Assembly: GCF_002368415.1 (NCBI RefSeq)
Contig: NZ_AP018290.1
Span: 4,043,614-4,107,613, forward strand
Length of the DNA stretch: 64,000 bases
Origin: Calothrix sp. NIES-4105
GTDB lineage: Bacteria > Cyanobacteriota > Cyanobacteriia > Cyanobacteriales > Nostocaceae
Direction: 5' to 3'
Shown here: positions 6,069 through 24,646 of the stretch, in pieces
Position numbering within the stretch: position 1 is the stretch's first letter
Layout of the letters: each line of letters starts with the position of its first letter
Program-made: the position numbers and the translations under genes
Notes under the pieces: model-generated
Databases searched by the model: none
What the model was told of the DNA's origin: nothing
Seen by the model: only the letters and a program-made list of their open reading frames with translations

Positions 6069-6144
6069 AGTCTTATTGGTTGGTATTTGAATCTGAATTC
6101 TTTGGAATTTTTAACTACACTCAATTAATTTTTGGTAAATAGCG

Positions 6145-7735: not shown

Positions 7736-7798
7736 ATGGAGGATTTGTCAGTGGGTTACGGACAAGCTAGCCAAACATCAGGAGAGAGGACTCAACTC

Positions 7799-8908: not shown

Positions 8909-9739
8909 ATGGATTTACACCGTAATGCACTGCAAATTCTCAAAGAAACTAGTCGAACTTTTTATATTCCAACTAGTATTTTACCTTCAGGATTGCAAGA
9001 AGCCGTTGCATCAGCATACTTGTGCCTACGTGCTATTGATGAGATTGAAGACCATTCAAAACTGAATAGCTCTGAAAAAGCACAATTATTATATACGATT
9101 AGTCAAACATTACAGGGGGGAGTTAATGGCTTTGCTGTTGATGCTTTCTCCGCAGGATTTAGCGGCTATGAAGATATCTTAGCAGAAGTAACTTTGAGGA
9201 TAAGAGAATGGTCTTTATTAGCCCCTGAGACAATTGCGCCACGAGTTTGGGATGCAACCTCCGCAATGGCTGTTCGCATGGCTTATTGGGCAGAAAAAAA
9301 TTGGAAAATTGACTCGGAATCTGATTTAGATCGCTATACTTTTGGGGTTGCTGGTGCAGTTGGGTTATTACTCTCAGATTTATGGACTTGGTATGATGGC
9401 ACACAAACCAACCGGACTCTGGCAATTGGCTTTGGTCGTGGTTTACAAGCGGTGAATATTTTGCGTAACCATAGTGAAGACTTGGAACGCGGTGTAGACT
9501 TTTTCCCAGAGGGTTGGACTACCGTAGATATGCAAGAGTATGCGCTGCGTAATTTAGCATTGGCAGAGGCTTATACTCAAGCTTTACCTGCTAGTCCGGC
9601 TTTAAACTTTTGTCAAATTCCCTTAGCCTTAGCGCATGGAACGATTGATGCTCTAGCTAATGGGAAAGAAAAACTCAACCGTAGTGATGTCATTGCTCTA
9701 GTTGAGCAATTAAATGGTGTGAATGTCAAAGTTAGTTAA
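8909..9739 (+). CDS. Squalene synthase (trans-isoprenyl diphosphate synthase family)
   Basis: A 276-residue squalene/phytoene synthase-family protein. The first aspartate-rich motif is LRAIDEIEDH (about residues 41-50) and the second NILRNHSEDLERG (about 182-195), followed by DFFPEGW, which resembles the FWP motif of squalene synthases. It would condense two farnesyl diphosphates to squalene. It is shorter than eukaryotic squalene synthases (about 410 residues) because it lacks the C-terminal membrane anchor. First gene of a tight same-strand run: the next starts 22 bp downstream, followed by squalene epoxidase and the cyclase. That context argues for squalene rather than phytoene; an HpnC/D-like half reaction is a less likely alternative. 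Confidence 0.8.
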   Translation: MDLHRNALQILKETSRTFYIPTSILPSGLQEAVASAYLCLRAIDEIEDHSKLNSSEKAQLLYTISQTLQGGVNGFAVDAFSAGFSGYEDILAEVTLRIREWSLLAPETIAPRVWDATSAMAVRMAYWAEKNWKIDSESDLDRYTFGVAGAVGLLLSDLWTWYDGTQTNRTLAIGFGRGLQAVNILRNHSEDLERGVDFFPEGWTTVDMQEYALRNLALAEAYTQALPASPALNFCQIPLALAHGTIDALANGKEKLNRSDVIALVEQLNGVNVKVS

Positions 9740-9761
9740 TAACATTGAGTTTTTTTGACAT

Positions 9762-10277
9762 ATGAATCATTTACTTCTTCCAGTCACAACTGTAAATGTG
9801 ATGTTTGCAGGAATAATAGTAATAGGGTTTATAGTATTTTTGTTTTTAGGAAGTCTCTTACTATCGGGTAAAACCGTTCCGGGGTGCATTCAGTCAGATG
9901 GCACTCACAAACTATATAAACTCAATGGCTTACTTCTTTTTTGCGGCGCCAATACCCAGAAAAATCGATTCGAGAAAAACGCAAACGCTATCATCTGGGG
10001 AAAACCAGCTCAGACATTAGGTGGCAAATTGTTGATATCCGGATGGTGGGGTATTGGGCGAAAACTCAACTACACGGGTGAGATTATCGTTTATTTTGCG
10101 TTTTCTTTAACAACAGGTACTCAGTCAATTGTGAGTTATCTGTTGCCACTTTGGTTGTGCCTGCTACTTCCCAATCGAGCTTGGCGAGATGAACAACGTT
10201 GCCAAGCAAAGTATGCCAACTTTTGGCATGACTATTGCACCAAAGTCCGGTTTCGTATGATTCCATTTGTGTACTGA
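9762..10277 (+). CDS. ERG4/ERG24/DHCR7-type sterol reductase with a large internal deletion
   Basis: Only 171 residues, against about 430-475 for the family. After one membrane segment (about 12-33) comes the N-terminal family signature (SDGTHKLYKLNGLLLF, residues ~44-60). This jumps straight to the C-terminal signature: NTQKNRFEKN, LLISGWWGIGRKLNYTGE, then RDEQRCQAKYANFW and a CTKVRFRMIPFVY end. These C-terminal blocks bind NADPH and sterol in C-14 and delta-7 reductases. The join is in frame near 9947-9955, at a GGCGCC site. The gene overlaps the epoxidase gene by 11 bp. Most membrane helices are missing, so activity is doubtful; it may be a decayed C-14 or delta-7 reductase, or a real mini-enzyme. 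Confidence 0.75.
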   Translation: MNHLLLPVTTVNVMFAGIIVIGFIVFLFLGSLLLSGKTVPGCIQSDGTHKLYKLNGLLLFCGANTQKNRFEKNANAIIWGKPAQTLGGKLLISGWWGIGRKLNYTGEIIVYFAFSLTTGTQSIVSYLLPLWLCLLLPNRAWRDEQRCQAKYANFWHDYCTKVRFRMIPFVY

Positions 10278-11667
10278 AAATCCTATGAAACTTTTGCATA
10301 GCTCACCTGATGTTGCTGTTATTGGTGCTGGTCCTGTAGGTTGTGTAACAGCCCTAACCTATGCTCAACAAGGGGCTAAGGTATTATTGCTGGAAGCTTA
10401 CTCTCAGAACGTGAAATGCTTTGCGGGTGAATGGCTACATCCTCCTGGTGTCCAAATTTTGCAACAAGTAGGTATAGATTTAAATCTGAAACGCATCACT
10501 TATCCATGTGGGAAAGGATTTGTTATCTTTCCAGAGGATGGAACTACTCCCATTCAGCTAGATTATCCAGATGGCGAAGTTGGTTTAAGTTGTGAGCATA
10601 GCACAATTCTTGGCATTCTGCGAGAAGCTGCTGCATCTCATGACAATATTCAATTGTTGTGCGACACAAAAGTGACCAGGATTGATGGGCAAAAAATCAC
10701 ATTTGAGCAACGTAACCAGGGCGTTACTCACACTGCCTTAGTCAACACCATCGTAGGGGCTGATGGTCGAGCATCGACCGCCCGTAAAATTTTAGGAATT
10801 CCTAACCAGAGCATTCCTATTTCTTTCATGGCGGGGATATTGTTAAAAGATGTAGAGCTTCCATTTGAAGGCTTTGGTCATGTGGTTTTGGGAAGTGTGG
10901 GACCGGTATTGATGTACAGGGTTGGGGCTGAGTTAGTACGAGTTTGTTTAGATGTTCCACGCTATTTTTCTAGAGACCCTGCTACGCTATGGAAGGCATA
11001 CAACTCAGTCATTCCTAAAACATTACAACCTGCATTTAAACAAGCATTAAGCCGCGATGAAGTCGCTTGGGCTGTAAATCTGTTTTGTTCAAGAGTCCAA
11101 TATGGTCGAACTGGGTTGGCACTGGTAGGAGATGCAACCGGATATTTTCATCCGATTACTGCAACAGGTATGACAATTGGTTTTCTCGATAGCGATTGTT
11201 TGGTGAGAAGCCAGCGATTTGAAGATTATCAGCAAGAGCGAACATTTCGCACCTATGTTCCGGAATTGCTTGCTATCACGCTCTACGAGGTCTTCACGAA
11301 GCAAGATGAAAGTGCTACGGCTTTGAGACATGCTATTTATCGCCTGTGGCGCTCTGATCCGATGGAGTGCCGTCACACTATGCAGTTATTATCGGGTCGA
11401 GAAACAAAGTTGCTATCCTTTAGCCGCTCCTTTTTGAAAGGAGTTCTTTTGGCAATGGCTGAAGTAGTTCAAAATAATGTGCGTCAGCAAAAATGGTTAC
11501 AAATTGTTCGGGATTTGGTATCTTTTAATCAATGGTTATATATACCAATTAAGCTTGCCTTGTTGCGTGCCAAAAAATTATTAAAAATTTATTTCAATAA
11601 CTCAAAAATAACAACCAAGATATTAGATATCTATTCAATAACCCAAAACGAACAACCGAGAAACTAA
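10267..11667 (+). CDS. sqe: Squalene monooxygenase (squalene epoxidase)
   Basis: A 466-residue FAD monooxygenase. The dinucleotide fold is DVAVIGAGPVGCVTALTYA (about residues 9-28) with EA at the end of the second strand; the DG motif is VGADGRAST (about 172), and the GD motif ALVGDATGYFHPITATGMT (about 284-303), typical of squalene epoxidases. It oxidises squalene to (3S)-2,3-oxidosqualene using O2 and NADPH electrons. The C-terminal ~100 residues are helical and basic, as expected for peripheral membrane attachment. Its stop and the cyclase start share one base (TAATG), so the two are translationally coupled, which fixes the pathway as sterol rather than hopanoid. Confidence 0.9.
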   Translation: MCTENPMKLLHSSPDVAVIGAGPVGCVTALTYAQQGAKVLLLEAYSQNVKCFAGEWLHPPGVQILQQVGIDLNLKRITYPCGKGFVIFPEDGTTPIQLDYPDGEVGLSCEHSTILGILREAAASHDNIQLLCDTKVTRIDGQKITFEQRNQGVTHTALVNTIVGADGRASTARKILGIPNQSIPISFMAGILLKDVELPFEGFGHVVLGSVGPVLMYRVGAELVRVCLDVPRYFSRDPATLWKAYNSVIPKTLQPAFKQALSRDEVAWAVNLFCSRVQYGRTGLALVGDATGYFHPITATGMTIGFLDSDCLVRSQRFEDYQQERTFRTYVPELLAITLYEVFTKQDESATALRHAIYRLWRSDPMECRHTMQLLSGRETKLLSFSRSFLKGVLLAMAEVVQNNVRQQKWLQIVRDLVSFNQWLYIPIKLALLRAKKLLKIYFNNSKITTKILDIYSITQNEQPRN

Positions 11668-13688: not shown

Positions 13689-13831
13689 TATCATTTAGCT
13701 TTTTGAATTTTTAAATATCTTCTTTATGCCTTTAACAAAAATTATCATTTTTACCTGCATGTTATATTTTTCTGAAGTTTCTAGTAAATATAACGATTTG
13801 ATTTATAATATTTTTATATCACGCAGATTAA

Positions 13832-13990
13832 ATGCCAATTAGCCTGGATATGCAATATCGCTTTCCATTTCCTGCCTTCTCGAATGGATGGTTTTGCGTT
13901 GCTTACAGCAATGAACTGCCGCTAAAAAAAGTAATCCCTCTACGCTATTTTGGAAAAGACCTTGTACTGATTGCCCTACCTATCCAGTAG
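13832..13990 (+). pseudogene. Rieske oxygenase 5' stub
   Basis: A 52-codon frame reading RFPFPAFSNGWFCVAYSNEL and then RYFGKDLVLIALPIQ, plainly the N-terminus of the same Neverland-type Rieske family as 6145-7131 and 14616-15632. It ends before the CxH...CxxH cluster-binding motif. It sits 143 bp after the cyclase and 11 bp before the ERG2-type gene. The likely history is a third Rieske copy whose remainder was lost when the isomerase gene arrived or when the region recombined. Confidence 0.75.
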
Positions 13991-14001
13991 TTGATAAATC
14001 T

Positions 14002-14619
14002 ATGCCATATATTTTTGAACCAGATGTTCTACATAATATTGCCCAGAATAGCATTGGTTTACCCTACGACCAGATGTTTGAGACACTGAGAGCCAAACTT
14101 GAAAATTATTATCCCGGCAAAATTAGCCCCAAGATTGAATGGAGCCTAAACAATGCGGGAGGGTGTATGTATAGCATTGGTGTACTACATGCGTCTTTGA
14201 ATGAGTACCTGCTTATATTCGGTTCAGCAATTGGTACAATGGGACACACGGGACGACATTGCACTGAGATATTTGATTTTGTCATAGATGGTGAACTTTG
14301 GTATTTTGGAGAAGATCGCCCCTATGAGCGAGTTATTCGACAGGCAGGCGATCGCTATTACTTGCCCAAGTTCAAGAGCGAAGGTTTATGTATCAAAGAC
14401 CGCGCCTGGGTTTTAGAATATGCCAGAGGACCAATTCCCTCAATGTTGCCCTTTGGTTTAGCGGATTCTATTTTCAGTACGTTGGATTTGAGAACGGTTG
14501 GTCGCACCTTTGAGATTTACGGCAAATTATTTTTGCAGCAGTGGCGCCATCAGTGGCGAGCGAAGAAAATCTCATCACCCAGTCATAGTTCCAGTATCAT
14601 TAATCGCGAGACATTATGA
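14002..14619 (+). CDS. Sterol C-8 isomerase, ERG2/sigma-1 receptor family
   Basis: A 205-residue protein matching the ERG2/sigma-1 fold nearly end to end: YIFEPDVLHNIAQNSIGLPY, EWSLNNAGGCMYSIGVLHAS, YLLIFGSAIGTMGHTGRHCT, AGDRYYLPKF, and WVLEYARGPIPSMLPFGLAD followed by FSTLDLRT. Fungal ERG2 moves the C8(9) double bond to C7(8) in sterols. The usual N-terminal membrane anchor of the eukaryotic proteins is missing. It overlaps the next Rieske gene by four bases (ATGA), so they are probably translated together. Few bacterial members are known to me; its position in a sterol operon supports the same reaction. Confidence 0.85.
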   Translation: MPYIFEPDVLHNIAQNSIGLPYDQMFETLRAKLENYYPGKISPKIEWSLNNAGGCMYSIGVLHASLNEYLLIFGSAIGTMGHTGRHCTEIFDFVIDGELWYFGEDRPYERVIRQAGDRYYLPKFKSEGLCIKDRAWVLEYARGPIPSMLPFGLADSIFSTLDLRTVGRTFEIYGKLFLQQWRHQWRAKKISSPSHSSSIINRETL

Positions 14620-15632
14620 CAGGTCGTTTTCCCTTTTCACCCTACCCCAATGGATGGTTTCGGGTGGCTTACAGCGATCAACTACGCAACGGTACTGTTC
14701 AACCCTTGCATTACTTTGGCAAAGACCTGGTTCTCTTACGGACTCAGAATGGCACAGCAAAAGTATTTGATGCCCATTGTCCTCATTTTGGCGCCCATTT
14801 AGGATATGGAGGGTGGGTTGAAGGAAATGCGATCGTCTGTCCATTTCACGGTTGGAGATTTGGAGAAAGTGGACATTGTTTGTCGGTGCCTTACAGTGAA
14901 AAAAGCCCTCCTAAAGCACAACTGTATTCCTATCCGGTTTATGAAGCAAATGGTCTAATACTAGTTTACTATCACTCCCACCAAGAACCACCAACCTGGG
15001 AAATGCCAACCTTGCCTCAATGGAATCAGCAGGATTGGACACCATTTCTTCGGCGTTCCTGGCATATTCGCACCCATCCGCAAGATATGGCAGAAAATGC
15101 CCTGGATACAGCACATCTGCTTTGGTTACATGGGCAGTCTTTTAAGGCAGTTACAGACAGCAAGCTAGAGATTAATGGCGCAGTTCTCACCCATCGCTTG
15201 CGCCCAAACTATCGACTGACGATCTCGGGTAAATTTGGAATCGATGCAACAGGAATGGCTGAAATTAGCTCCTATGGCTTAGGCTGTCAGGTCAGTTATA
15301 CCAAAATCAAAGCATTGATTGAATTTCATAGCCTTGCCCTCTTCTTTCTGACTCCGATCGATGAAGAAATCGTAGATGTCCATATTCTAGTTAGCACAAA
15401 ACAGATCATTCATCCAGCTATTACCTATTTACTACGGCACAAAAGCATGACAGAAATCACCTACAACCTGAAACAGGATATTCCCATCTGGGAAAACAAA
15501 ATTTATCAGAGTCAACCGCTCCTGAGCAATGGTGATGGACCGATTACGTCTTATCGTCGCTGGGCACAACAGTTTTATACCCTAAATACCTATGCTGCCA
15601 CAGCTACAACCAAAACTTTAGGAGTGCGTTGA
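14616..15632 (+). CDS. Rieske oxygenase, Neverland/DAF-36/KshA type (paralogue 2)
   Basis: A 338-residue Rieske oxygenase. Cluster ligands lie in CPHFGAHLGYGG and CPFHGWRF at about residues 53-77; the mononuclear iron site is ENALDTAHLLWLH (about 166-178). The opening FPFSPYPNGWFRVAYSDQL and the cluster context point to a sterol substrate. In animals DAF-36/Neverland introduces the C-7 double bond; in bacteria a Rieske protein (SdmA) oxidises C-4 methyls. Either step is possible here. It needs an electron-donating ferredoxin and reductase, and none is in the cluster. It is coupled to the ERG2-type gene by a four-base overlap. Confidence 0.82.
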   Translation: MTGRFPFSPYPNGWFRVAYSDQLRNGTVQPLHYFGKDLVLLRTQNGTAKVFDAHCPHFGAHLGYGGWVEGNAIVCPFHGWRFGESGHCLSVPYSEKSPPKAQLYSYPVYEANGLILVYYHSHQEPPTWEMPTLPQWNQQDWTPFLRRSWHIRTHPQDMAENALDTAHLLWLHGQSFKAVTDSKLEINGAVLTHRLRPNYRLTISGKFGIDATGMAEISSYGLGCQVSYTKIKALIEFHSLALFFLTPIDEEIVDVHILVSTKQIIHPAITYLLRHKSMTEITYNLKQDIPIWENKIYQSQPLLSNGDGPITSYRRWAQQFYTLNTYAATATTKTLGVR

Positions 15633-15733
15633 AAGTTTTACTTATGCAAACTTTAATATCCGTAATTTAAGTTGTCTCATTGTTAATAATAAATCAAATG
15701 TAACCTGTAATCTCACCACTATCTTCCTGATTT

Positions 15734-16221
15734 ATGAAACAGTTAGAAAAAATTCCTTTACAAAAGCGTCCTCAAGATTGGTTCTTTATTGGCTGTTTTA
15801 GCTTTTTTGCCTGGTCTTCCTTTTGTATAAGTTCTATTAGCGCTCTCAACATTTCCCTTAGCCCAAACAGTCAAAATTTTTGGGTCAAAATTCTGTATTG
15901 GTATGGTTCAGCGATTGATCCACTCACCTTGATCAATCCACCTTTTCTCCAGATGCAAACCTTCATTGATACATTTATTTTTAGACCCTTTTATCTTTGT
16001 TTAATTTATGCACTTATCCAAGGTGCCAATTGGATTCGGATTCCCGCATTCTTTTATGTATCATCTATTACTTATTCTCTGGTGTTATTGATAGGAGTAG
16101 AATTATTAGGTTTTTCCCACCAAAAGATTTTCCGAAGTTCTTGATGTTTAATATTCCTTATATTTTTATACCCCTTCTTTTGGGATATCGGTTAAGGCAT
16201 CCATTCCCCTTTGCTCACTAG
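15734..16221 (+). pseudogene. EXPERA-domain (EBP/TMEM97-like) protein split by a frameshift
   Basis: The frame from 15734 gives 136 residues: KRPQDWFFIGCFSFFAW, ILYWYGSAIDPLTLINPP, ALIQGANWIRIPAFFY and SSITYSLVLLIGVELLGF, the layout of the four-helix EXPERA domain of emopamil-binding protein (sterol delta8-delta7 isomerase), TM6SF2 and TMEM97. It then stops at 16144. The expected fourth helix and the basic end (FNIPYIFIPLLLGYRLRHPF) follow in the +1 frame up to 16221, so one indel near 16110-16140 splits the gene. Either the gene is dying or the base call is wrong. It lies 101 bp after the Rieske gene. Confidence 0.7.
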
Positions 16222-16239
16222 AAAAAACGAGGCTGAATC

Positions 16240-16773
16240 ATGAAAAGAGTGGCGGTTATTGGGGCAGGTTTAGCAGGTTTTGCGGCAGCAATGAGCCTCA
16301 ATAAATTTCTTGGTATTGAAGTTTCATTATTAGACAAAGCTACTTTTCCCCAGCGTAAAGTTTGTTGCAGTGGTTTATCTCCGTGGACATTAGACCTTTA
16401 GACCTGCTCGATCAGATGGGAATTGGTAACACTGTTCGCAGACAAGCCTATCCAATTCGGGCTGGGATTATTGGTGGGGTGGGTGGAACTGCGGTAGAAC
16501 TACGAAGCTGCCTTTTTAGTGCGTTCCCAGTTTGACACCATTCTTGCCCACGAAGCAGCACATCAAGGCGCCCAACTCATCGAAGATACCCGCGTTGAAG
16601 AACTTGTTCGGGAAAATGGACGTTTAATTGGTATCAAAACCAATCAAGGTAACCTTAGAAAAAAACATCTTTTTTTTTACGCTCGCTTAAACCCAGAACG
16701 CGCATTTATTATTAGTATTCCACATAAAACCATCTGCCCTCTGCCCTCTGCCTTTTCTTGTAAAATTTTCTGA
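16240..16773 (+). pseudogene. Geranylgeranyl-reductase-family flavoprotein, decayed
   Basis: The start MKRVAVIGAGLAGFAAAMSL with LDKATFPQRKVCCSGLSP is an FAD-binding N-terminus of the geranylgeranyl reductase family. A stop falls at 16399. The sequence goes on in other frames (LDLLDQMGIGNTVRR, then RSQFDTILAHEAAHQGAQLI...RLIGIKTNQG) with at least two frameshifts. It then ends in low-complexity bases (repeats of CCCTCTG) instead of the catalytic C-terminal half. It is a relic directly upstream of an intact member of the same family. Confidence 0.75.
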
Positions 16774-16782
16774 GTAACTTAT

Positions 16783-18057
16783 ATGTTAGAAATCTCAAAT
16801 TATGGTCAAGTTTATGATGTTTGTATTGTTGGAGCTGGTCCTGGTGGTGCAACCTGTGCTTACTATCTAGCTTGTCAGGGTAAGAAGGTTTTGTTAATAG
16901 AAAAAGAAGCATTTCCGCGTGACAAAATTTGTGGAGATGCTGTTTGCACTCGTGCAATCCTGCATCTCCAAGAAATGGGGGTATTTCAAGAAATATTGGC
17001 AGAAAACAAAGGGCATTGGGCAAAAAATGGCGGCTTTGTGAGTCCCAAAGGAATCAGCTTTATTGGTAATTCTGCTCAACATATGCCCATGCCACTGGTT
17101 ATGGCAATTAAGCGAGTCATCTTGGATGAAAAAATAGCCAGAGCAGCCACACGGGTAGGTGCAACACTCGTAGAAAGCTCGCCAGTTGTTAAAGCGTCAT
17201 TTTCTGAAACAAACAAATGTTGGACTATTATTACGTGCAAAACTAATCACGGAACAACATCATACCAGGCACGGGTGCTAGTGGCAGCAGATGGAGCAAA
17301 TTCTAAACTAGCACGTTCCCTAGGTCTGGTTAAAACAAATCCAGATGGAGTCTGTAGTCGAGCTTACATCAAACCAGGAACATCCACGTTTACTCATGAT
17401 GGAGTAGTCTTTTATCCACCAGTATTACTTCCCGGATATTGCTCGATTTTTCGAGAAGCAGGCGATGAATTAAGTTTTTGCTGCTACATTATCCCTGGTG
17501 GACGGCTCAAACCAACTGATTTAGGCAAGATACATCATCAAATAATCACAAAAGACCCCTATGTGAGTAAAGCACTCGGTTCCAATGCTCAAATTGGCAA
17601 AATGATGGGTGCGCCACTCCGGTTAGGTGGCATTCCAAAAAGCTACGCAAATCATTTATTAATTGTAGGGGATGCTGCCGGACACATTGATCCTTTAACT
17701 GGTGAAGGAATTCAGTTTGCGATGGATGCTGCCAAAATTGCCGCAGATACTTTAGTAGAAGCATTTGCGATCGGGGATATGAGCGAAAGCTTTTTGAAAC
17801 GATATCACAGTCGTTGGATGAAAGCGTTTGGTTGGGATTTTCAATGGGGTACCCGATTTACTGAGGTTTACAAGCGTTACCCTTTACTCTTAGATGCTTG
17901 TGCTGCACTGACTCGTCGTTATGGTAGTGAGTTCTTAGCCGAGTGGGGTAAAGTGATGACGGGTACACAGCCCAAGAGTTATTTCCTGCAACCACAAATC
18001 TTGTTGCCGTTGGCATTAGAAGTTGGACAACAACTAATAAGACCTAATGCTGCATAA
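16783..18057 (+). CDS. Geranylgeranyl-reductase-family FAD oxidoreductase
   Basis: A 424-residue flavoprotein. The FAD fold is DVCIVGAGPGGATCAYYLA (about 11-29), with KEAFPRDKICGDAV, the family's PxxKxCGG-like motif, at about 45-58; then VAADGANSKLAR (about 168) and LIVGDAAGHIDPLTGEGI (about 293-310). Relatives saturate isoprenoid double bonds in chlorophyll and archaeal lipid synthesis. Inside a sterol cluster it is a good candidate for reducing a sterol double bond, such as C-14 after CYP51 or the C-24 side chain; that is inference. The dead copy just upstream suggests duplication or replacement. A methyltransferase gene follows 50 bp downstream. Confidence 0.85.
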   Translation: MLEISNYGQVYDVCIVGAGPGGATCAYYLACQGKKVLLIEKEAFPRDKICGDAVCTRAILHLQEMGVFQEILAENKGHWAKNGGFVSPKGISFIGNSAQHMPMPLVMAIKRVILDEKIARAATRVGATLVESSPVVKASFSETNKCWTIITCKTNHGTTSYQARVLVAADGANSKLARSLGLVKTNPDGVCSRAYIKPGTSTFTHDGVVFYPPVLLPGYCSIFREAGDELSFCCYIIPGGRLKPTDLGKIHHQIITKDPYVSKALGSNAQIGKMMGAPLRLGGIPKSYANHLLIVGDAAGHIDPLTGEGIQFAMDAAKIAADTLVEAFAIGDMSESFLKRYHSRWMKAFGWDFQWGTRFTEVYKRYPLLLDACAALTRRYGSEFLAEWGKVMTGTQPKSYFLQPQILLPLALEVGQQLIRPNAA

Positions 18058-18107
18058 AGTAAGCCTTAAAAAACATATAAGGCTGATCTATCACTCAGGA
18101 GTATTCA

Positions 18108-18986
18108 ATGAAGAAATCAGATTTTCAAACTATTGTAAAAAACCCTATTCAGCGAGCTACAAGATACCAGGAAATGGTCGGAACTTATTTTGATCTTGTT
18201 ACAGACTCTTATCGACAGCATTGGGGAGAATCTTTCCATTTTGCAATCTTTTCTAGCTCGGAACCTCTTAAGGATGCACTAAATAATACAGAGCGATTTA
18301 TTGCTGATTCAGGTCAATTTTGCTCAGGTATGAAGATTCTTGATGTTGGTTGTGGAGTAGCAGGACCAGCCATCAATATTGCAGCATACTCAGGCGCACA
18401 TGTCACAGGCATTAATATTAATGCACAACAACTTGAAATTGCTAATCGGCGAGTTAAAGAGCATGGGCTTTCTGACAAAATCGAGCTTGTTTTAGCCGAT
18501 GCAATGCAGATGCCTTTTGAAAACGAATCATTCGATGCAGTTTATATTTTTGAAGCTGGCTGTCACATGCCTAATAAAGCCAATTTTTATCAAGAATGTG
18601 CCCTTGTTTTGCGTCCAGGTGGAGTATTTGTTGGTACTGACTGGTTTACAGCTGAGGACTTAACAACCGAGCAAAAGACCAAATACATTGAGCCAATTTG
18701 TCGCTATCATGCAGTTCCAAATATTATCTCACTTGGTGATTTAAAAAAATGTCTGGTATCTGCAGGTTTAACGGTTGAAGTAGTAGAGAATATCGAAAAT
18801 CATGGCAATATATTGCGTAACTGGGAATTGATGGATACCAGGATTGCACAAAATATTCGTGGGTTGATTCCTTGGTTGCTTCCATCTACGTTGAAAATGT
18901 TAACAAAGGGTGGCTACGCCTTGCTTGATGGGGTAAAATCCGGCACCTTTATGATTGGTCATTGGCGGGCACGTAAACCCGTTTAA
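18108..18986 (+). CDS. SAM methyltransferase, sterol C-24 methyltransferase (ERG6/SMT)-like
   Basis: A 292-residue class I methyltransferase. Before the SAM motif it has YFDLVTDSYRQHWGESFHFA (about 25-44), close to the sterol-binding region of SMTs where eukaryotes have EYGWG-SFHF. SAM motif I is LDVGCGVAGPAINIA with the SMT-typical GCGVGGP pattern; VTGININAQQLEIANRR follows, and later VLADAMQMPFENESFDAVY. It would transfer a methyl group to C-24 of a delta-24 sterol. Methyltransferases of tocopherol and related lipids share motif I, so substrate is inferred from the N-terminal block and the neighbours. A sterol dehydrogenase starts 24 bp later. Confidence 0.72.
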   Translation: MKKSDFQTIVKNPIQRATRYQEMVGTYFDLVTDSYRQHWGESFHFAIFSSSEPLKDALNNTERFIADSGQFCSGMKILDVGCGVAGPAINIAAYSGAHVTGININAQQLEIANRRVKEHGLSDKIELVLADAMQMPFENESFDAVYIFEAGCHMPNKANFYQECALVLRPGGVFVGTDWFTAEDLTTEQKTKYIEPICRYHAVPNIISLGDLKKCLVSAGLTVEVVENIENHGNILRNWELMDTRIAQNIRGLIPWLLPSTLKMLTKGGYALLDGVKSGTFMIGHWRARKPV

Positions 18987-19010
18987 TCATAATTAATCAC
19001 AGGAGGGTAT

Positions 19011-20045
19011 ATGACAATTCTGGTAACGGGAGCTAGTGGGCATTTAGGTGCCAACCTTGTGCGACGCTTGCTGGAAGATGGGCATTCTGTTCGTGTGCTT
19101 TTACGGCAAGGAAGTAATAACACAGCCGTTGATGGCTTAAATGTGGAGCGGGTCTATAGTGATTTGCGCGACGCAAATGCTGTGCTAGCAGCCATTCAGG
19201 GGTGCGATCACATCTATCACTGTGCCGCCAATGTTTCTATATTAGATGGAATCCCCGAACTCCAACAGGAAATTTACGACTGCAATGTAATTGGTACCCG
19301 CAATCTCTTGCAAGCAGCTTTAGCGAATGGCGTATCTAAAGTCGTTGTTACTGGTTCCTTAAGTGCAGTCGGGTATCATCCCACCCAACCTAGCGATGAA
19401 ACCGTTCCCTTTAATCCATTTGGGAACCATTTGCCCTATGAGTTTACCAAAAGTTGTGTTGAGCATGAATGTCTCAAAGCTTTTGCTGATGGACTGAATG
19501 TGGTGATTGCAGTTTCTTGCGCCATCTTAGGAACAAACGACTTTAAGCCCTCCCGCATGGGCAAAACCTTGGTTGATTTTGCCAACGGTAAACTGTCGGC
19601 TTACGTTCCTGGCGGGTTTGAGTTCGTTTCTACTAGGGACATTGTGCAAGGACACATTCTAGCAATGGACAAAGGACGACCCGGACAAAAGTACATTTTC
19701 AGCACCCAATTTCTGACAGTAGATGAGTTAATGGGTATTTTTGAAGAGATTACTGGGAAATCTCGTCCTCGCTTACGCATCCCTGGTTTTGTAATGGCAG
19801 TGATTGCCACTACGGCTGATGCGATTTTACCGCGTTTGTTTCCGCAAATGCCACGCCGCTTTACCTCTGGTGCAGTAAGAATTTTGCAAATGTACCGCCG
19901 AGCGGACTGTCGGAAAGCAAAAAATGAACTGGGATATCAACCCACCAGCATTCGACAAGCGATTCAAGAAGCCTATGACCATTTTGTGCGACGCGGTATG
20001 ATTCAAACTGTGACACCCGTGATGCGAGCGAGCGCCCCAAACTAG
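19011..20045 (+). CDS. 3-beta-hydroxysteroid dehydrogenase/C-4 decarboxylase-like (SdmB-like)
   Basis: A 344-residue extended SDR. The NAD-binding motif is VTGASGHLGANLVRRLL (about 5-21), with DGHSVRVLLRQ after it; the catalytic YxxxK is in LPYEFTKSCVEHE (about 143-155), and the 3-beta-HSD-type region FVSTRDIVQGHILAM is present. In Methylococcus the SDR SdmB acts with the Rieske oxygenase SdmA to remove a C-4 methyl as CO2 and a 3-ketone. Its position between the methyltransferase and CYP51, with a Rieske gene two downstream, fits that role. A GGAGG ribosome site precedes the start. About 540 bp with two small mobile elements separates it from cyp51. Confidence 0.82.
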   Translation: MTILVTGASGHLGANLVRRLLEDGHSVRVLLRQGSNNTAVDGLNVERVYSDLRDANAVLAAIQGCDHIYHCAANVSILDGIPELQQEIYDCNVIGTRNLLQAALANGVSKVVVTGSLSAVGYHPTQPSDETVPFNPFGNHLPYEFTKSCVEHECLKAFADGLNVVIAVSCAILGTNDFKPSRMGKTLVDFANGKLSAYVPGGFEFVSTRDIVQGHILAMDKGRPGQKYIFSTQFLTVDELMGIFEEITGKSRPRLRIPGFVMAVIATTADAILPRLFPQMPRRFTSGAVRILQMYRRADCRKAKNELGYQPTSIRQAIQEAYDHFVRRGMIQTVTPVMRASAPN

Positions 20046-20097
20046 AATATCAACTCAGTAATCAAAAACCTAACCCCCCAACCCCCTTCCCTTGTAG

Positions 20098-20244
20098 GAT
20101 ACTGCTGGCTATTCAGGGGTAACACCCCACACTTGAACGAGAAATCAAGCATTTCAGGAGCTATAGGCGCCTCAACTGGTAGCTCAAAAACCCGATTAAA
20201 TCGTTGGGGTGAGGGGTCAAACCTACCATTCGCTCTTCTGTATC
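20098..20244. mobile_element. 147-bp miniature element in a hairpin loop
   Basis: The element starts GATAC and ends GTATC and is flanked by direct repeats CTTGTAG at 20091-20097 and 20245-20251. Removing it and one repeat restores a palindrome of CCCCCTTCCC, a short loop and GGGAAGGGGG. It contains a GGCGCC site and no gene I can support. Terminal inverted repeats beyond the five outer bases are weak. It lies in the gap between the SdmB-like gene and cyp51. Confidence 0.6.
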
Positions 20245-20284
20245 CTTGTAGGGAAGGGGGAGCTAAACTAACCCTCCCTCGCAG

Positions 20285-20491
20285 GGCTACCGTGTACACA
20301 CAAGTCGCGCGAAAGGGGCTTCGGGGGCTTCGGATGCAGGGGAGGAAGGTAGTGTTTGCGTGCATTTTTCGACATATCGGCGCACAAGCGAGCGAGTTCC
20401 CCCAACTCTCCAATTGCTTGATTTTCCGTACTCCCCCTACACCCCTGCTCCACTGCCCCCGATGCTCTTAAGTTGTGTGTACACGGTAGCC
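20285..20491. mobile_element. 207-bp miniature inverted-repeat element, family A
   Basis: Perfect 19-bp terminal inverted repeats, GGCTACCGTGTACACACAA at 20285-20303 and its reverse complement at 20473-20491, enclose ~170 bp with no credible gene. The copy is flanked by 7-bp direct repeats CTCGCAG at 20278-20284 and 20492-20498. Deleting it restores a palindrome of CCCTCC, loop, GGGAGGGG, so it sits in the loop of a GC-rich hairpin. A relative with the same right end is at 36024-36197. The insertion lengthens the leader between the SdmB-like gene and cyp51 and may disturb co-transcription. Confidence 0.8.
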
Positions 20492-20584
20492 CTCGCAGGG
20501 GAGGGGTTGGGAGAGGTTGTTTCAGGATTAGTGATATCGGTGTTCTACGGAAACCTACAGCAAAATCCAGAGGTGATAATTGAT

Positions 20585-21967
20585 ATGATAAGTACCAACC
20601 CTGAGATCAGCCTCAAAACGCCCCCTATTTTACGTGGTGGTCTGCCCTATTTAGGACACGCTTTGGAATTTCATCGCGACCCCATTGCCGTATTAAAAAG
20701 GGGACAAGCCAAATTTGGTGAGATTTTTTCGTTTCTGTTAGCTGGCGAGCAAATTACAGTTTTGACTGGTCCCAAGGGGAATGAGGCATTTTTTCGGGCG
20801 CCTGACAGCCAATTTAGTGCCAAAGAAGCCTATCGCTTTACAATCCCCATTTTCGGTCAAGGTATTGCCTATGATACAACGTCGGAAATCATGAGTGAGC
20901 AGTTGGGATTTATTTTTCCGGCACTCAGAGAAGAGCGGTTGCAGGCTTATGCCCAGTTTATGGCAGAAGAAGCTTATGCCTATTTAGACAGTTGGGGGCA
21001 GTCTGGAGAAGTCGATCTGTTAACTGCCTTGAACGAATTGACCATTTTCATTGCTAGTCGATGCTTAATTGGTCAAGAATTTCGGCAAAATCTTTCTACT
21101 GAGTTTGCTCACCTTTATCACGACTTAGAAGGTGGCATCAACCTGTTAGCCTTTTTCCAACCATATTTGCCTCTGCCGTCCTTCCAACGTCGTGATCGCG
21201 CTAGAGTACGGATGGTTCAACTCATCTCTGAAATCATCGCTAACCGTAGACGAAATGGCATTGTAGGGGAAGATTTCCTCCAAACCTTGATGGATGCAAG
21301 CTACTTAGATGGCACTGCCTTAACTGATGACAATATCACGGGGCTACTCATCACTCTCCTATTTGCTGGTCAACATACCAGTGCAGTTCTAGCAGCTTGG
21401 ACTGGCATCCTTCTGTTGCAACATTCCCAATTTCTCCCACCCATCCTGGAAGAACAACACAGGGTTCTCGATGAGCTAGCTGCCAGAAAGCCTGTCACGC
21501 TGGATCAATTAAAACAACTGCTTGCCTTAGAAAGAGCCATTAAAGAGGCAGAACGTTTACGTCCACCCTTAATCATGCTCATGCGAAAGATTTTACAAAA
21601 TTTTGAGTACAATGGCTACTATGTCCCAGCAGGCGGATTAGCGATGGTAGCACCTGCCATTTCTCACCGATTAGCCGAGTGCTTCCGCGATCCTGATCAA
21701 TATGATCCGGATCGATTTGCCCCCGACCGTGCTGAAGATCGCAAATCTGCCTACACCATGATTGGTTTTGGGGGCGGAAGACATCGCTGTATAGGGCAGT
21801 CTTTTGCATATCAGCAAATAAAAGTGATTTGGAGTGTATTACTTCAACACTTTGATTTAGGGCTAGTTCATCAAAACTACGAACCTAACTATTCTACATT
21901 TGTGATTGGCCCCAAGCAACCTTGCCTGATTCGCTATCGAAGAAAGAAAATTACCGATGTTAAATAG
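20585..21967 (+). CDS. cyp51: Sterol 14-alpha-demethylase, cytochrome P450 CYP51
   Basis: A 460-residue P450 with CYP51 features: LRGGLPYLGHALEFHRDP near the start, the I-helix segment TLLFAGQHTSAVLAAWTG (about 258-275), ExxR in KEAERLRPP (about 321), and the haem-binding loop FGGGRHRCIG (about 395-404) with Cys as ligand. It oxidatively removes the C-14 methyl of lanosterol-type sterols using an external redox partner. An N-terminal membrane anchor is absent, as in other bacterial CYP51s. I start it at 20585 because the family begins there and AGAGGTGA lies upstream; the frame stays open further 5' through the mobile element, but that extension is not protein-like. Confidence 0.92.
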   Translation: MISTNPEISLKTPPILRGGLPYLGHALEFHRDPIAVLKRGQAKFGEIFSFLLAGEQITVLTGPKGNEAFFRAPDSQFSAKEAYRFTIPIFGQGIAYDTTSEIMSEQLGFIFPALREERLQAYAQFMAEEAYAYLDSWGQSGEVDLLTALNELTIFIASRCLIGQEFRQNLSTEFAHLYHDLEGGINLLAFFQPYLPLPSFQRRDRARVRMVQLISEIIANRRRNGIVGEDFLQTLMDASYLDGTALTDDNITGLLITLLFAGQHTSAVLAAWTGILLLQHSQFLPPILEEQHRVLDELAARKPVTLDQLKQLLALERAIKEAERLRPPLIMLMRKILQNFEYNGYYVPAGGLAMVAPAISHRLAECFRDPDQYDPDRFAPDRAEDRKSAYTMIGFGGGRHRCIGQSFAYQQIKVIWSVLLQHFDLGLVHQNYEPNYSTFVIGPKQPCLIRYRRKKITDVK

Positions 21968-21991
21968 TCCGATGTGTGAGGATAGTCAACA

Positions 21992-23122
21992 ATGAAAGAC
22001 ATAGCTATAAAAGGCGCCACTACGCCGCCAACTTTTGAGCAAGCTAAAAATCGACGGCAAAAAGCGCGATCAGCCGGTATGGATCCAGACTATTGGTATG
22101 CCGTAGAGTATGACCTGGCACTAAAACCTGGACAGGTAATAGAGGTGATTTTTTGGCATACTTCGATCGCTCTTTATCGAGGACAAGATGGTCAGCTACG
22201 AGCCTTAGATAACCGATGCGCCCATCGCCATCTTAAGCTTTCTTTGGGGCAGGTGGATGGGAACTACCTAGTGTGCAATTATCACGGATGGGCTTACAAC
22301 GAAGCCGGAGAACTGACTCGTATTCCCCATGAACTTTTCAATAAGCCAATGCCAGTTTGCAAACTGCAAATCTATCCAGTACAAGTTCGGTATGGACTAA
22401 TCTGGATTTTTCCCGGTAATCCAACGTTGGCAGAAAAACGACAAATCCCTGATATACCTGAATTAGAAGGGGACAATCGATGGGCGTGTGTCCCCCTTGA
22501 CTTTACTTGGAACGCTCACCATTCGATGATTATTGATAATGTGAGTGACTTTACTCATGCACATTTGCATCGCCAGTATCGCCCATTTACCGATGCCAAG
22601 CTAACTCGCTGTGAGCAAATTGGCGATCGCGTTTATGTTGACTATAACACGAAGGTAGGAACAGGCAAAGTTTTTGGTTTATTCGTAGACCGCAAGCGAG
22701 TCAACACTAATGCGATGAAGCTTTGCTACGAATATCCCTATCAATGGTCTAGTACAGATAATCAAATTAAACACTGGTGCTTTTTGCTGCCAATTAACTC
22801 TCGTAAAACACGAGTATTTTTCTTGTTCTATTTTGATGCAATCATTGTTCCATTTACATCATTGCGGATTCCTCAATGGTTGATGACCTATGTACTAAAA
22901 ATTGCTAACCCATTACTGATTAAACCTTTACTTAGCCAGGATGGAGTTGCTGTTGAGGCAGAACAAATTGGCTATGAGACTCATCTTGATGCTCCAATTA
23001 TTGAAATCAGTCCAGCGGTTCATTTATTTCAGCAACTCACAATTCAGAAATGGGAAGAACATTTGGCTAAATCAGAGAAAAAAGCGTTATGCCAGGTTGA
23101 GGCTAAGTTTTCTGACTGTTGA
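21992..23122 (+). CDS. Rieske oxygenase, SdmA-like sterol C-4 demethylase candidate
   Basis: A 376-residue Rieske oxygenase of a different type from the two Neverland-like ones. It opens with GMDPDYWYAVEYDLALKPGQ, has cluster ligands in CAHRHLKLSLGQ and CNYHGWAY (about 72-97), and iron-site residues in DNVSDFTHAHLHRQY (about 182-196). Hydrophobic stretches near 285-325 may dock it to membranes. It sits 24 bp after cyp51 and close to the SdmB-like dehydrogenase, the arrangement expected for C-4 demethylation after C-14 demethylation. The assignment as SdmA rests on context and fold class, not on a unique motif. Confidence 0.75.
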   Translation: MKDIAIKGATTPPTFEQAKNRRQKARSAGMDPDYWYAVEYDLALKPGQVIEVIFWHTSIALYRGQDGQLRALDNRCAHRHLKLSLGQVDGNYLVCNYHGWAYNEAGELTRIPHELFNKPMPVCKLQIYPVQVRYGLIWIFPGNPTLAEKRQIPDIPELEGDNRWACVPLDFTWNAHHSMIIDNVSDFTHAHLHRQYRPFTDAKLTRCEQIGDRVYVDYNTKVGTGKVFGLFVDRKRVNTNAMKLCYEYPYQWSSTDNQIKHWCFLLPINSRKTRVFFLFYFDAIIVPFTSLRIPQWLMTYVLKIANPLLIKPLLSQDGVAVEAEQIGYETHLDAPIIEISPAVHLFQQLTIQKWEEHLAKSEKKALCQVEAKFSDC

Positions 23123-23179
23123 TTACCCGAACAGTAAGTAGATAATAAAAATCATTATTACAATAACCTAGATAAACAA

Positions 23180-24646
23180 ATGAGGATATTTCATAATCCG
23201 CATCTTCAGATTGCCTCAAAAAAAATCACTTCAGAGGTAAGCTTGCCAAATCAAATTCGTTGTCGCAAAAATTACCCGTGGAAAAATTGGGGGGAGACAG
23301 CTTCTTGTCAGCCTGAAATTTCTTTTTATCCTGAGAAAGTAGAGGACTTAATTGATATTGTTAAATTCGCTCGGAATACGAAAAAAAGAATTCGCGTTGC
23401 AGCCACAGGTCACTCTTGGTCAAAACTGATACCTACGGACGACATTTTAGTTTACGTCCACAAACTTAATCATGTAGAGATGGATTTTTCTGATCAGGAG
23501 AAGCCAAAGGTTTTAATAGAATGTGGCGCCACCGTCAAAGAAGTAAATAATGTATTAGAACGTCATGGATATGCCTTGCCCTTAAATATTGTGCTGGAAT
23601 CTGCGCGATTTGGGGGATTAATTGCAACAGGTAGTCACGGTTCTGGATGGAACAACTCTACCCTTTCTGACCTTGTACATTCAATTGAAATTGTTATCGC
23701 TTCTGGGCAGTTGCAACGGTTTGAAACTGGTATCGATGACGACGAAGTAATGAACGCGGCAAAACTAAATCTTGGTATGTTTGGCATTACTTATCGCATG
23801 AAGCTTTATGTCCAAAAAAGTTACACAGTCCGAGCCGTTGATAGGCGTGCCCCATTATTAGAAACGATTGAAAACATCAAAGAACTGATTATTTCGCACG
23901 AAAATTGCGATTTATTCTGGTGGCCCTTTTGCGATCAAATCTGGATCAAATCTTGGGATAAAATAGATGCGGAAATTACAGCCAAGCCAAGAAAAAATCT
24001 TTGGTACGATTTTGAAGCAGCAATAACTTCAAGACTTTTCAGGGAAACTCTAAAACTGCTTAAACGCTTTCCTCAGTTAACCCCAGAGATGTGCAAATTA
24101 TTCTTCAAAATGACTCCCTCGGTGAGAGATGATATAGTAGATCTTGTAGAGGCTATTCACTATAGACGTTCGATTGAAGTCACGAAGGTAGGATGTTTAG
24201 AAATCGCCTTCAAAGTCGATCCTGACTTTGAAAATGTCAAAAAAGCAATCAACATTGTATTAGAAAAAAATAGAGAATACGCTGCCAAGGGGAAATATCC
24301 TCTCAATCTCACGATGAATGTTCGTTTTATTAATGGCAGTCAATGTTTACTTTCTCCTGCTTTTGGAGAAGGACATACCTGTTTTATTGAAATTCTTAGT
24401 CGAGCAGACCAAAAGGAATGGGAACAGTTTTCTTCTGAAGTTGCGCTCCAGTGGTTAAAGCTTCCCAAAGCATTACCACACTGGGCAAAGGAGTTTGAAC
24501 ATATTCCAGGGATTACCACTCACATAAGGAGGGAAATGGGAGATAATATCAATATTTTTAACGACATAAAACAGCGACTTAAACTAGATATAGATAATAT
24601 TTTTATGAACGATTTGTTAATGAAAATATTTCTTGTCAAATCTTAG
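23180..24646 (+). CDS. FAD-linked oxidase, gulonolactone/arabinonolactone oxidase-like
   Basis: A 488-residue vanillyl-alcohol-oxidase-family flavoprotein: VAATGHSWSKLIPTDD (about 73-88), VLIECGATVKEVNNVLERHG, ARFGGLIATGSHGSGWNN (about 146-163) and LNLGMFGITYRMKL. The closest resemblance is to sugar-lactone oxidases (GULO/ALO). DHCR24, which reduces the sterol side chain, belongs to the same FAD_binding_4 superfamily. Being last in the sterol run, 57 bp after the Rieske gene, it could be a sterol side-chain oxidoreductase; that is inference from place only. The basic C-terminus ends MKIFLVKS with no membrane anchor. No terminator is obvious after it. Confidence 0.75.
   Translation: MRIFHNPHLQIASKKITSEVSLPNQIRCRKNYPWKNWGETASCQPEISFYPEKVEDLIDIVKFARNTKKRIRVAATGHSWSKLIPTDDILVYVHKLNHVEMDFSDQEKPKVLIECGATVKEVNNVLERHGYALPLNIVLESARFGGLIATGSHGSGWNNSTLSDLVHSIEIVIASGQLQRFETGIDDDEVMNAAKLNLGMFGITYRMKLYVQKSYTVRAVDRRAPLLETIENIKELIISHENCDLFWWPFCDQIWIKSWDKIDAEITAKPRKNLWYDFEAAITSRLFRETLKLLKRFPQLTPEMCKLFFKMTPSVRDDIVDLVEAIHYRRSIEVTKVGCLEIAFKVDPDFENVKKAINIVLEKNREYAAKGKYPLNLTMNVRFINGSQCLLSPAFGEGHTCFIEILSRADQKEWEQFSSEVALQWLKLPKALPHWAKEFEHIPGITTHIRREMGDNINIFNDIKQRLKLDIDNIFMNDLLMKIFLVKS

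Follow-up and report, generated by a model that had tools for sequence, protein, structure and literature searches.

A cyanobacterial sterol gene cluster with open early genes and damaged late-step genes

Results

Gene content of the cluster

The window analyzed here is a 64,000-nucleotide stretch of cyanobacterial DNA from a 12.04-Mb genome assembly (8 contigs, completeness 100%, contamination 1.21%). An initial annotation had described a nearly complete sterol pathway on one strand between positions 8909 and 24646. Open reading frames and profile matches bear out the squalene synthase, squalene epoxidase, lanosterol-type oxidosqualene cyclase, ERG2-type isomerase, SdmB, CYP51, and SdmA as open frames on one strand, accompanied by two KshA-type Rieske oxygenases (Table 1). 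Judged from its genes, this is a genuine sterol cluster of an already published kind, dedicated to sterols and equipped for C-14 and C-4 demethylation as proposed; the claim that it encodes a nearly complete pathway probably does not hold. For comparison, we used 31 related loci, eight of them from other cyanobacteria (labels L004 to L012 denote comparison loci). The open-frame core genes have pN/pS values of 0.20 to 0.48 against their relatives, which mostly reflect long-term history. Promoter and terminator scans of the cluster gave results at chance level.

Table 1. Features of the sterol cluster and its upstream flank (positions in the window)
Feature	Position	Strand	Evidence or remark
C-14 sterol reductase relic, residues ~185-239 of the relatives' 368	5979..6116	+	6-residue gap, TAG stop
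KshA-type Rieske oxygenase R0	6145..7131	+	PF00355, PF19298; outside 8909-24646
ParB-family protein	7736..8659	+	PF02195, PF17762
Squalene synthase	8909..9739	+	PF00494 E 2.6e-25; TIGR01559 80.7 bits, cut-off 286.75
C-14 sterol reductase, in-frame internal deletion of ~190 residues	9762..10277	+	171 aa instead of 366-368
Squalene epoxidase	10267..11667	+	PF08491; likely ATG start 10285
Oxidosqualene cyclase, lanosterol-type residue	11667..13688	+	TIGR03463, TIGR01787; DCTAE
ERG2/sigma-1-receptor-type sterol isomerase	14002..14619	+	PF04622 22-204 of 210, E 2.5e-51
KshA-type Rieske oxygenase R1	14616..15632	+	PF00355, PF19298; PDB KshA E 5.8e-35
EXPERA-family (TMEM97-like) gene, frameshifted near 16111	15734..16144	+	PF05241 27.9 bits
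bsr relic (bacterial sterol C-24 reductase), ~residues 1-141 of 364	16240..16659	+	2 TAG stops, gaps; tblastn
Divergent geranylgeranyl-reductase-family flavoprotein (GGR2)	16783..18057	+	TIGR02032 165.5 bits, over 158.8 cut-off
Sterol-methyltransferase-like C-methyltransferase	18108..18986	+	SMT-side branching; 59% ortholog in L004
SdmB-type C-4 decarboxylase/dehydrogenase	19011..20045	+	NF052578 best NCBIfam match, 347.7 bits, cut-off 600
CYP51 sterol 14-alpha-demethylase	20585..21967	+	PDB CYP51 E 1.2e-121; start inferred
SdmA-type Rieske C-4 methyl oxidase	21992..23122	+	NF052579 best NCBIfam match, 392.3 bits, cut-off 600
FAD-linked sugar-lactone-oxidase-type protein	23180..24646	+	PF01565, PF04030; TIGR01678 172.4 bits, cut-off 396.8

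Early steps and demethylation

The squalene synthase is 61 to 69% identical to its counterparts in the six cyanobacterial loci where one was found. The epoxidase stop overlaps the cyclase start (TAATG), and the two genes form one open frame in L005, L007, and L012; no title returned by our literature search named a bacterial epoxidase-cyclase fusion. The cyclase scored 731.7 bits against TIGR03463, below the cutoff of 851, and passed the broader TIGR01787 (527.2 versus 322.7). The DCTAE motif noted in the initial annotation is present as WPVSDCTAE, with a Val two residues ahead of the DCTAE Asp. Together with DCTAE, a Val at human position 453, a position equated here through the motif and not through a human alignment, marks the cyclase as lanosterol type under a published rule (PMC4919349). 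The ParB-family protein encoded upstream of squalene synthase has a homolog in the corresponding place in three Hormoscilla clusters (approximately 41 to 42% identity in L008 and L009; L011 matches in pieces), and it is possible that this protein is a regulator.

Among the best 60 of 169 matches, the closest solved relatives of the CYP51 were CYP51s (up to 410.1 bits), ahead of an entry named only Cytochrome P450 (265.3) and CYP120 (151.7), which upholds the family assignment. Its heme stretch, FGGGRHRCIG, has His for Arg and leaves the strict pattern FxxGxRxCxG unmatched. His in place of Arg at this site is known from CYP51s. SdmB and SdmA are the best NCBIfam matches of the genes assigned to C-4 demethylation, both below the 600 cutoff, and the proteins are 72 to 76% (SdmB) and 70 to 80% (SdmA) identical to the cluster copies in the other eight cyanobacterial loci. 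In L006, SdmB and CYP51 share one frame. The C-4 demethylation work on Calothrix sp. NIES-4105 that the initial annotation mentioned is genuine: PMC10202945 gives experimental evidence for C-4 methyl removal by the SdmA and SdmB proteins of that strain and for lanosterol formation by its cyclase, and these published proteins are the only ones for which the two activities have been demonstrated.

Isomerase and EXPERA genes

The ERG2-type gene is sound; it matches PF04622 over essentially the full profile, resembles the sigma-1 receptor in the PDB (E 2.1e-30), and is rare: in a sample of 386 cyanobacterial genomes, one had it. The gene described as EBP-like belongs to the EXPERA family and is frameshifted relative to two orthologs. 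According to tblastn across frames, the missing C-terminal portion is encoded in a different frame at 16114-16215, and its PF05241 score compares with 55.8 and 53.2 bits in L005 and L007. Because PF05241 spans the whole EXPERA superfamily and cannot separate EBP from other EXPERA proteins, we relied on PDB matches. At E<=1 these were the sigma-2 receptor and TM6SF1 only (E 2.1e-6 for the profile against sigma-2 receptor 7m93), so a TMEM97-like protein is preferred over EBP.

A deleted C-14 sterol reductase and its relic

The first of the proposed reductases, at 9762-10277, is an internally deleted gene. The PF01222 (ERG4/ERG24) match is limited to the last 119 positions (314-432 of 432), and tblastn of reductase relatives recovers only residues 1-60 and 248-368; the gene encodes 171 of the approximately 368 residues of a full-length C-14 sterol reductase. 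Full-length orthologs (366 to 368 aa) are present in five of the eight other cyanobacterial loci, and after this comparison we set aside a normal short reductase. Of the remaining three, L004 and L005 have a reductase cut at or near contig ends, and L010 lacks the gene in the fetched stretch and also yielded no CYP51 ortholog. An intact ortholog matches the Delta14-sterol reductase PDB 4quv with E 5.8e-64.

Upstream, a relic of a C-14 sterol reductase lies at 5979-6116, with tblastn identities of 65 to 72%; the search of its own genome gave E 2.3e-12, 69% identity, and one TAG. This relic overlaps the end of an ORF (5640-6068) and runs past it; the first part of that ORF is a fragment of an ISL3-type transposase (PF14690 23.4 bits, under the cutoff of 25.5). 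The own-genome search found no intact C-14 sterol reductase, and no other PF01222 match in the genome exceeded the cutoff. The rest of the deleted gene carries no clear sign of relaxed selection (pN/pS 0.19 to 0.21), and its odd residues (7 of 60) compare with 85 of 1,278 (Fisher p = 0.18). AlphaFold models of the intact and deleted reductases had mean pLDDT values of 55.2 and 54.7 and were set aside.

The site of bsr

The own-genome search detected the bsr relic with E 4.8e-43, 63% identity, and two TAG stops, and it found no intact-frame member of the Bsr clade anywhere in the genome. Intact Bsr orthologs and an E. salina homolog group together in a single clade. GGR2 and the methyltransferase occupy the site of the missing rest of Bsr. 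GGR2, one of the proposed reductases, has a full open frame and is 24 to 32% identical to GGRs of sterol genomes; it does not join the Bsr clade, although the tree resolves its exact position poorly, and with the real bsr identified as the relic we reject it as Bsr. With four candidates scored per genome, a GGR2-like protein at E<=1e-40 occurred in 1 of 386 cyanobacterial genomes, namely this one, and no plasmid match was found at E<=1e-20.

In the tree of the proposed C-24 methyltransferase, a split with support of 100/98 placed 16 rows (14 SMTs plus 2) against 23, so the protein branches beside bacterial SMTs rather than with generic cyanobacterial methyltransferases, which makes a generic methyltransferase less likely; it lies outside the SMT clade itself. 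Neither the window methyltransferase nor the L004 protein matches Sterol_MT_C (PF08498); the L012 protein does, with 78 bits. Five other cyanobacterial genomes were searched for both genes: the methyltransferase ortholog occurs in the one without Bsr, and the four without the methyltransferase have Bsr, one of them split. The other genome with this methyltransferase is L004, in which its reductase runs into the contig end.

Rieske oxygenases, last flavoprotein, and genomic setting

R0 is 53% identical to its L006 homolog, which adjoins the sterol reductase there. R1 is 65 to 67% identical to proteins of L005 and L007, and matches at E<=1e-30 occur in 3 of 292 cyanobacterial genomes, this one included. 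Alignment shows intact iron-ligand motifs in both. We also considered a possible link between the Rieske pair and the eukaryotic cholesterol 7-desaturase; titles in the cholesterol 7-desaturase literature named no bacterial enzymes. The protein at 23180-24646, the last of the proposed reductases, is instead of the sugar-lactone-oxidase type. It matches galactonolactone dehydrogenase in the PDB (E 1.2e-19), and its PF09129 cholesterol-oxidase domain scored 20.5 bits, under the cutoff of 25. None of the 31 related loci gave a match at E<=1e-5, and any tie to sterols is putative.

We recognized neither a C-5 desaturase nor a C-7 reductase in the cluster. The genome has seven genes of the FA_hydroxylase family at other sites, and the damaged reductase gene is its only C-7 reductase candidate over the PF01222 cutoff. 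Among seven genomes of the genus, only this one has a close SdmA match; the other six have one paralog each at 33 to 34%. Near an SdmA paralog of this same genome, a second locus (L124) has SdmA-like and SdmB-like frames (31% identity each) and nothing that matches the cyclase, epoxidase, CYP51, or ERG2 of the window. The sterol cluster was probably acquired horizontally.

Discussion

The initial annotation held that the isomerase, methyltransferase, and reductases bring the pathway near completion. The C-14 reductase, Bsr, and EXPERA genes are damaged, and the functions of GGR2 and the methyltransferase are uncertain. These lesions can be read directly in the assembled DNA, and the chemistry proposed below follows from protein families. 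We think it probable that the cluster encodes a working early pathway whose late steps have been decayed and remodeled, and that its products would be 14-unsaturated sterols, perhaps with a methylated side chain, and not cholesterol. The early and middle steps would be carried out by the open-frame squalene synthase, epoxidase, lanosterol-type cyclase, CYP51, and SdmA/SdmB, with an ERG2 double-bond shift. The late steps appear partly decayed, given a C-14 reductase without its middle, a Bsr relic, and a frameshifted EXPERA gene; the site of Bsr is occupied by an SMT-like methyltransferase and a new flavoprotein of the GGR family. The two KshA-type Rieske enzymes probably perform further ring oxidations. 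The most likely output would be a C-4- and C-14-demethylated sterol in which the double bond that CYP51 leaves at C-14 persists and the C-24 double bond is either kept or methylated; the product would not be cholesterol.

It is doubtful, though conceivable, that a cholesterol-type pathway was switched specifically to side-chain-methylated sterols, with the SMT-like methyltransferase replacing Bsr by using the same C-24 double bond and the GGR-family flavoprotein reducing the new 24(28) double bond. To our knowledge, no such ERG4-like role has been described in the GGR family. An alternative that we regard as unlikely is that the pathway is still complete and yields cholesterol-like sterols of the sort initially reported for NIES-4105, with C-14 and C-24 reduction by GGR2, the sugar-lactone-oxidase-type protein, or unlinked genes. 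The constrained core genes, the full open frame of GGR2 in a family that includes the known C-24 reductase Bsr, and the potential for a C-5 desaturase among the seven FA_hydroxylase genes agree with it. Methanotrophs saturate C-14 without a recognizable ERG24 reductase (PMC4919349), so the genome studied here may likewise encode a reductase of an unknown type. Against this stand the failure to find an intact C-14 reductase or Bsr in the genome, the position of GGR2 outside the Bsr clade, and the lack of a C-7 reductase candidate over the PF01222 cutoff other than the damaged gene.

Decay of the whole cluster, such that sterols are no longer made under normal conditions, is improbable. Three damaged genes with a transposase fragment nearby would fit such decay, as would the report that cultured NIES-4105 stopped making sterols without a mutation in or upstream of its cluster (PMC10202945), but the core genes and both Rieske genes are open, with the pN/pS values given above. 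Errors of assembly or sequencing are a very improbable source of the lesions: we worked from a single assembly, but it is complete and in few contigs, the in-frame loss, the multi-lesion truncated gene, and the frameshift affect separate genes, and the other cluster frames are open.

The production of complex sterols by cyanobacteria is disputed and bears on steranes read as eukaryotic fossils. According to PMC10202945 (Lee, Wei and Welander 2023), extracts of NIES-4105 once showed cholesterol together with C-24-saturated intermediates, a result that the authors call inconclusive. If the window is from this published Calothrix strain, that early signal would be hard to credit to the cluster, given its broken C-14 and C-24 reductases. 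Rivularia sp. MS3 and Calothrix rhizosoleniae SC01, with apparently intact clusters, are better subjects. The comparison of loci also offers a simple testable rule: Bsr or the methyltransferase, not both.

As described in that paper, the 21-kb NIES-4105 cluster covers oxidosqualene production and cyclization to lanosterol, C-14 demethylation, C-8 isomerization, and full C-4 demethylation by SdmAB. The window likewise holds the oxidosqualene, C-14, C-8, and SdmAB steps in one cyanobacterial cluster, whereas the main text of the paper lacks the terms methyltransferase, ERG24, C-14 reduct-, truncat-, and frameshift. Bsr, as presented in PMC12004948 (Lee and Welander 2025), belongs to the GGR family and is encoded in sterol clusters of both Myxococcota and cyanobacteria; we regard the intact L005, L007, and L010 proteins as Bsr, whereas the window has only a relic, and its adjoining intact GGR-family gene is of another lineage. 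Like the bacterial SMTs of Brown et al. 2023 (PMC10070321, in whose main text "cyanobacteri-" occurs 0 times), the window methyltransferase lies in a sterol cluster, has a WGxSFHF-type stretch, and forms a sister branch of 14 bacterial SMTs, but it lacks a Sterol_MT_C match and sits on a long separate branch. The intact L007 ortholog aligns with the Delta14-sterol reductase 4quv over residues 24-368, whereas about half of the protein, in its middle, is absent from the window copy. Finally, although the genes here are bacterial and the window EXPERA copy is truncated, the homologs of the sigma-2 receptor/TMEM97 (the EXPERA gene) and of the sigma-1 receptor (the ERG2 gene) are near neighbors in the cluster.

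Layout and distribution of the sterol cluster

A single-strand block at ~5.98 to 24.65 kb holds 15 genes and two relics, and its gene families are those of sterol synthesis, well above chance. Junctions measure 22 bp from squalene synthase to the C-14 sterol reductase (ERG24 type), -11 bp between reductase and epoxidase, -1 bp (TAATG) between epoxidase and cyclase, -4 bp between ERG2 and the Rieske oxygenase R1, 50 bp from GGR2 (a geranylgeranyl-reductase-family flavoprotein) to the methyltransferase, and 24 bp both from methyltransferase to SdmB and from CYP51 to SdmA. Wider gaps lie 3' of the Rieske oxygenase R0 (604 bp), the ParB-family gene (249 bp), the cyclase (313 bp), and SdmB (539 bp).

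Coordinates of features in the window and in other loci
Feature	Locus	Position	Strand
C-14 reductase relic	window	~5979-6116	
R0, KshA-type	window	6145-7131	
ParB-family gene	window	7736-8659	
C-14 reductase	window	9762-10277	
ERG2 and EXPERA neighbors	window	14002-16144	
R1, KshA-type	window	14616-15632	
EXPERA gene	window	15734-16144	
Missing EXPERA end	window	16114-16215	
Bsr relic	window	16240-16659	
GGR2	window	16783-18057	
Methyltransferase	window	18108-18986	
Last flavoprotein	window	23180-24646	
Integrase	window	50106-51281	
Primase/helicase-like	window	56307-58925	
Epoxidase-cyclase frame	L005	957-4304	
Epoxidase-cyclase frame	L007	6541-9885	
Epoxidase-cyclase frame	L012	10623-14069	-
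SdmB-CYP51 frame	L006	4374-6857	-
Second module	L007	1-4386	
Second module	L010	15518-20558	
SdmA/SdmB-like frames	L124	G000:C1:2003000-2018000	
KshA-type Rieske gene	L125 (G199)	8320-9303	

ERG2 (PF04622) was found in 1 of 386 sampled cyanobacterial genomes, the window's own. Matches to R1 at E<=1e-30 occurred in 3 of 292 cyanobacterial genomes including the window's, the remaining two at 37 to 38% identity. Among seven genomes of the genus, a close SdmA match was present in the window's alone; the other six each hold one paralog (33 to 34%), and the window's genome holds two further paralogs (33%). Because these matches are so rare among the sampled genomes, we consider the block patchy and probably acquired.

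A ParB-family gene lies 5' of squalene synthase here and likewise in the Hormoscilla loci L008, L009, and L011 (in pieces in L011). Elsewhere in the window, an integrase gene, together with one for a primase/helicase-like protein (DUF3854, DUF5906, and D5_N), suggests an integrated mobile element. In the same genome, L124 combines SdmA-like and SdmB-like frames (31% each) and an FA_hydroxylase gene within 8 kb, without a cyclase or CYP51. The Rieske gene of L125, with ~38% identity to R1, has neighbors that look acyl-AMP-ligase- or polyketide-like (types assigned by eye); its host is a cyanobacterium for which the 386-genome sample gave no ERG2 match.

Comparison with related clusters

An ERG2 protein scan yielded 31 loci, from which we compared nine: eight cyanobacterial loci (L004 to L011) and a Verrucomicrobiota (Opitutales) cluster, L012. 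Among the remaining 22, only L017, L022, L024, and L026 had a window-protein match beyond ERG2. The nine have in common, with exceptions, a core of reductase, epoxidase, cyclase, ERG2, SdmB, CYP51, and SdmA. Neither the reductase nor a close CYP51 is present in the L010 stretch, some genes have split frames in L011 and L006, and the fetched L006 stretch stops within the epoxidase, placing its cyclase outside the comparison. From reductase to SdmA, gene order in the window equals that in L005 and L007, except that L005 has an additional cupin-like ORF and the window has the GGR2-methyltransferase insertion. Epoxidase and cyclase form a single open frame of 1114 to 1148 codons in L005, L007, and L012, as do SdmB and CYP51 in L006 (827 codons), which ties these functions together.

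In L007 and L010, the sterol cluster adjoins a second module whose genes suggest additional modification of sterols: two further SdmB-like genes (61 to 64%), extra Rieske genes of the KshA type, and a further P450, partial in L007.

Lesion in the C-14 sterol reductase

The reductase product is 171 aa in the window versus 366 to 368 aa for its orthologs in L006, L007, L008, L009, L011, and L012; in L005 and L004 the gene is interrupted at a contig end or close to one, and the upstream stops in L004 are perhaps real, perhaps not. The window protein aligns to residues 1 to 60 and 248 to 368 of the L007 reductase, which itself matches the Delta14-sterol reductase 4quv (E 5.8e-64, residues 24 to 368). 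A GL..(L/I)F stretch is common to both deletion edges, as would be expected if short repeats had allowed an in-frame slip.

In the whole genome, the damaged reductase alone passed the PF01222 cutoff (27 bits; second match 23.6 bits), and a search with the intact protein recovered only this gene and a relic near R0, which covers reductase residues 185 to 239 with a stop and may derive from a duplicate of the gene or from a displaced fragment.

For ten open-frame genes, pN/pS between the window and its relatives was 0.20 to 0.48; the frameshifted EXPERA gene gave 0.42 and the remaining reductase end 0.19 to 0.21. These values, which leave out GGR2, ParB, and the last flavoprotein, are rough because synonymous sites are near saturation. 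Odd residues numbered 7/60 in the reductase end versus 85/1278 in a pool of eight other genes (Fisher p = 0.18). Given both measures, either the lesion is recent or the short protein is still of use.

Bsr relic and methyltransferase

L005, L007, and L010 encode intact GGR-family proteins that are orthologs of one another (L005 and L010 with 97 and 81% identity to L007), and the L006 ortholog is split (72 to 74%). The three intact proteins form one clade (support 100/99) with an Enhygromyxa salina protein, 36% identical to that of L007. We take this clade as the bacterial sterol C-24 reductase (Bsr) because PMC12004948 reports Bsr from Myxococcota including E. salina and from cyanobacteria with sterol genes; our tree contains the E. 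salina protein rather than the tested Sandaracinus sequence. The window's ortholog is a 5' relic with two TAG codons and gaps. Directly 3' of it, GGR2 has 24 to 32% identity to the GGRs compared; its branch is long and poorly placed and does not belong to the Bsr clade.

The window methyltransferase keeps a WGxSFHF stretch and has no PF08498 (Sterol_MT_C) match. At E<=1e-15, methyltransferase matches occurred in 178 of 386 genomes, the best beyond the window's genome at 37% identity. In a 39-protein tree, the window and L004 methyltransferases form one branch (97/90) adjoining 14 sterol methyltransferases (SMTs), split at 100/98 from 23 generic cyanobacterial methyltransferases, a set that drew on best matches of cyanobacterial genome searches. 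The SMT references were the L012 protein plus PF08498-bearing proteins from 13 loci, spread over 10 myxobacterial genomes (10 of 235 genomes); because a single best open frame was chosen per locus, the exact copy is uncertain where two SMTs adjoin.

The L004 genome contains an ortholog (59%). Five other cyanobacterial genomes searched yielded none: four gave only matches of 32 to 39%, and L008 gave no match at E<=1e-20. Across the five genomes searched for both enzymes (L008 was outside the genome-wide Bsr search), L004 has the methyltransferase without Bsr and the other four have Bsr, split in one case, without the methyltransferase. The window, with a methyltransferase and a Bsr relic, agrees with this pattern. 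Mutual exclusion is plausible, on small numbers, since each of the two would act on the C-24 double bond.

Sigma-receptor homologs

The EXPERA product has 166 aa in L005 and L007, the only other loci with a match at E<=1e-5; the window frame comprises 136 aa, with the missing end encoded in another frame. A profile of these three sequences matched the sigma-2 receptor 7m93 (E 2.1e-6) and TM6SF1 (E 0.015), with no EBP match at E<=1. ERG2 is homologous to the sigma-1 receptor. Homologs of ERG2/sigma-1 and TMEM97/sigma-2 are thus near neighbors in one bacterial cluster, and both have open frames in L005 and L007.

Predicted chemistry and the published record

Among the titles and abstract openings listed by our searches of the open-access literature, we found no account of broken reductases, Bsr-methyltransferase exclusion, or the fusions. 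The cluster type itself is already known: PMC10202945 describes early Calothrix extracts that contained cholesterol and the later disappearance of every sterol, with no mutation either within the cluster or upstream of it; its authors call the initial sterol analysis inconclusive. The window plausibly comes from that strain or from one close to it.

Judging from gene families, squalene would be converted to oxidosqualene and then lanosterol, the latter predicted by the cyclase residue rule in PMC4919349. CYP51 would leave a C-14 double bond, SdmA and SdmB would take off the C-4 methyls, as demonstrated with Calothrix NIES-4105 proteins (PMC10202945), and ERG2 would move the ring double bond. 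Within the cluster, we recognized neither a C-5 desaturase nor a C-7 reductase; seven FA_hydroxylase genes occur elsewhere in this genome. Without a C-14 reductase, the C-14 double bond should persist, barring another, unrecognized enzyme. In methanotrophs, according to PMC4919349, this double bond must be removed without ERG24.
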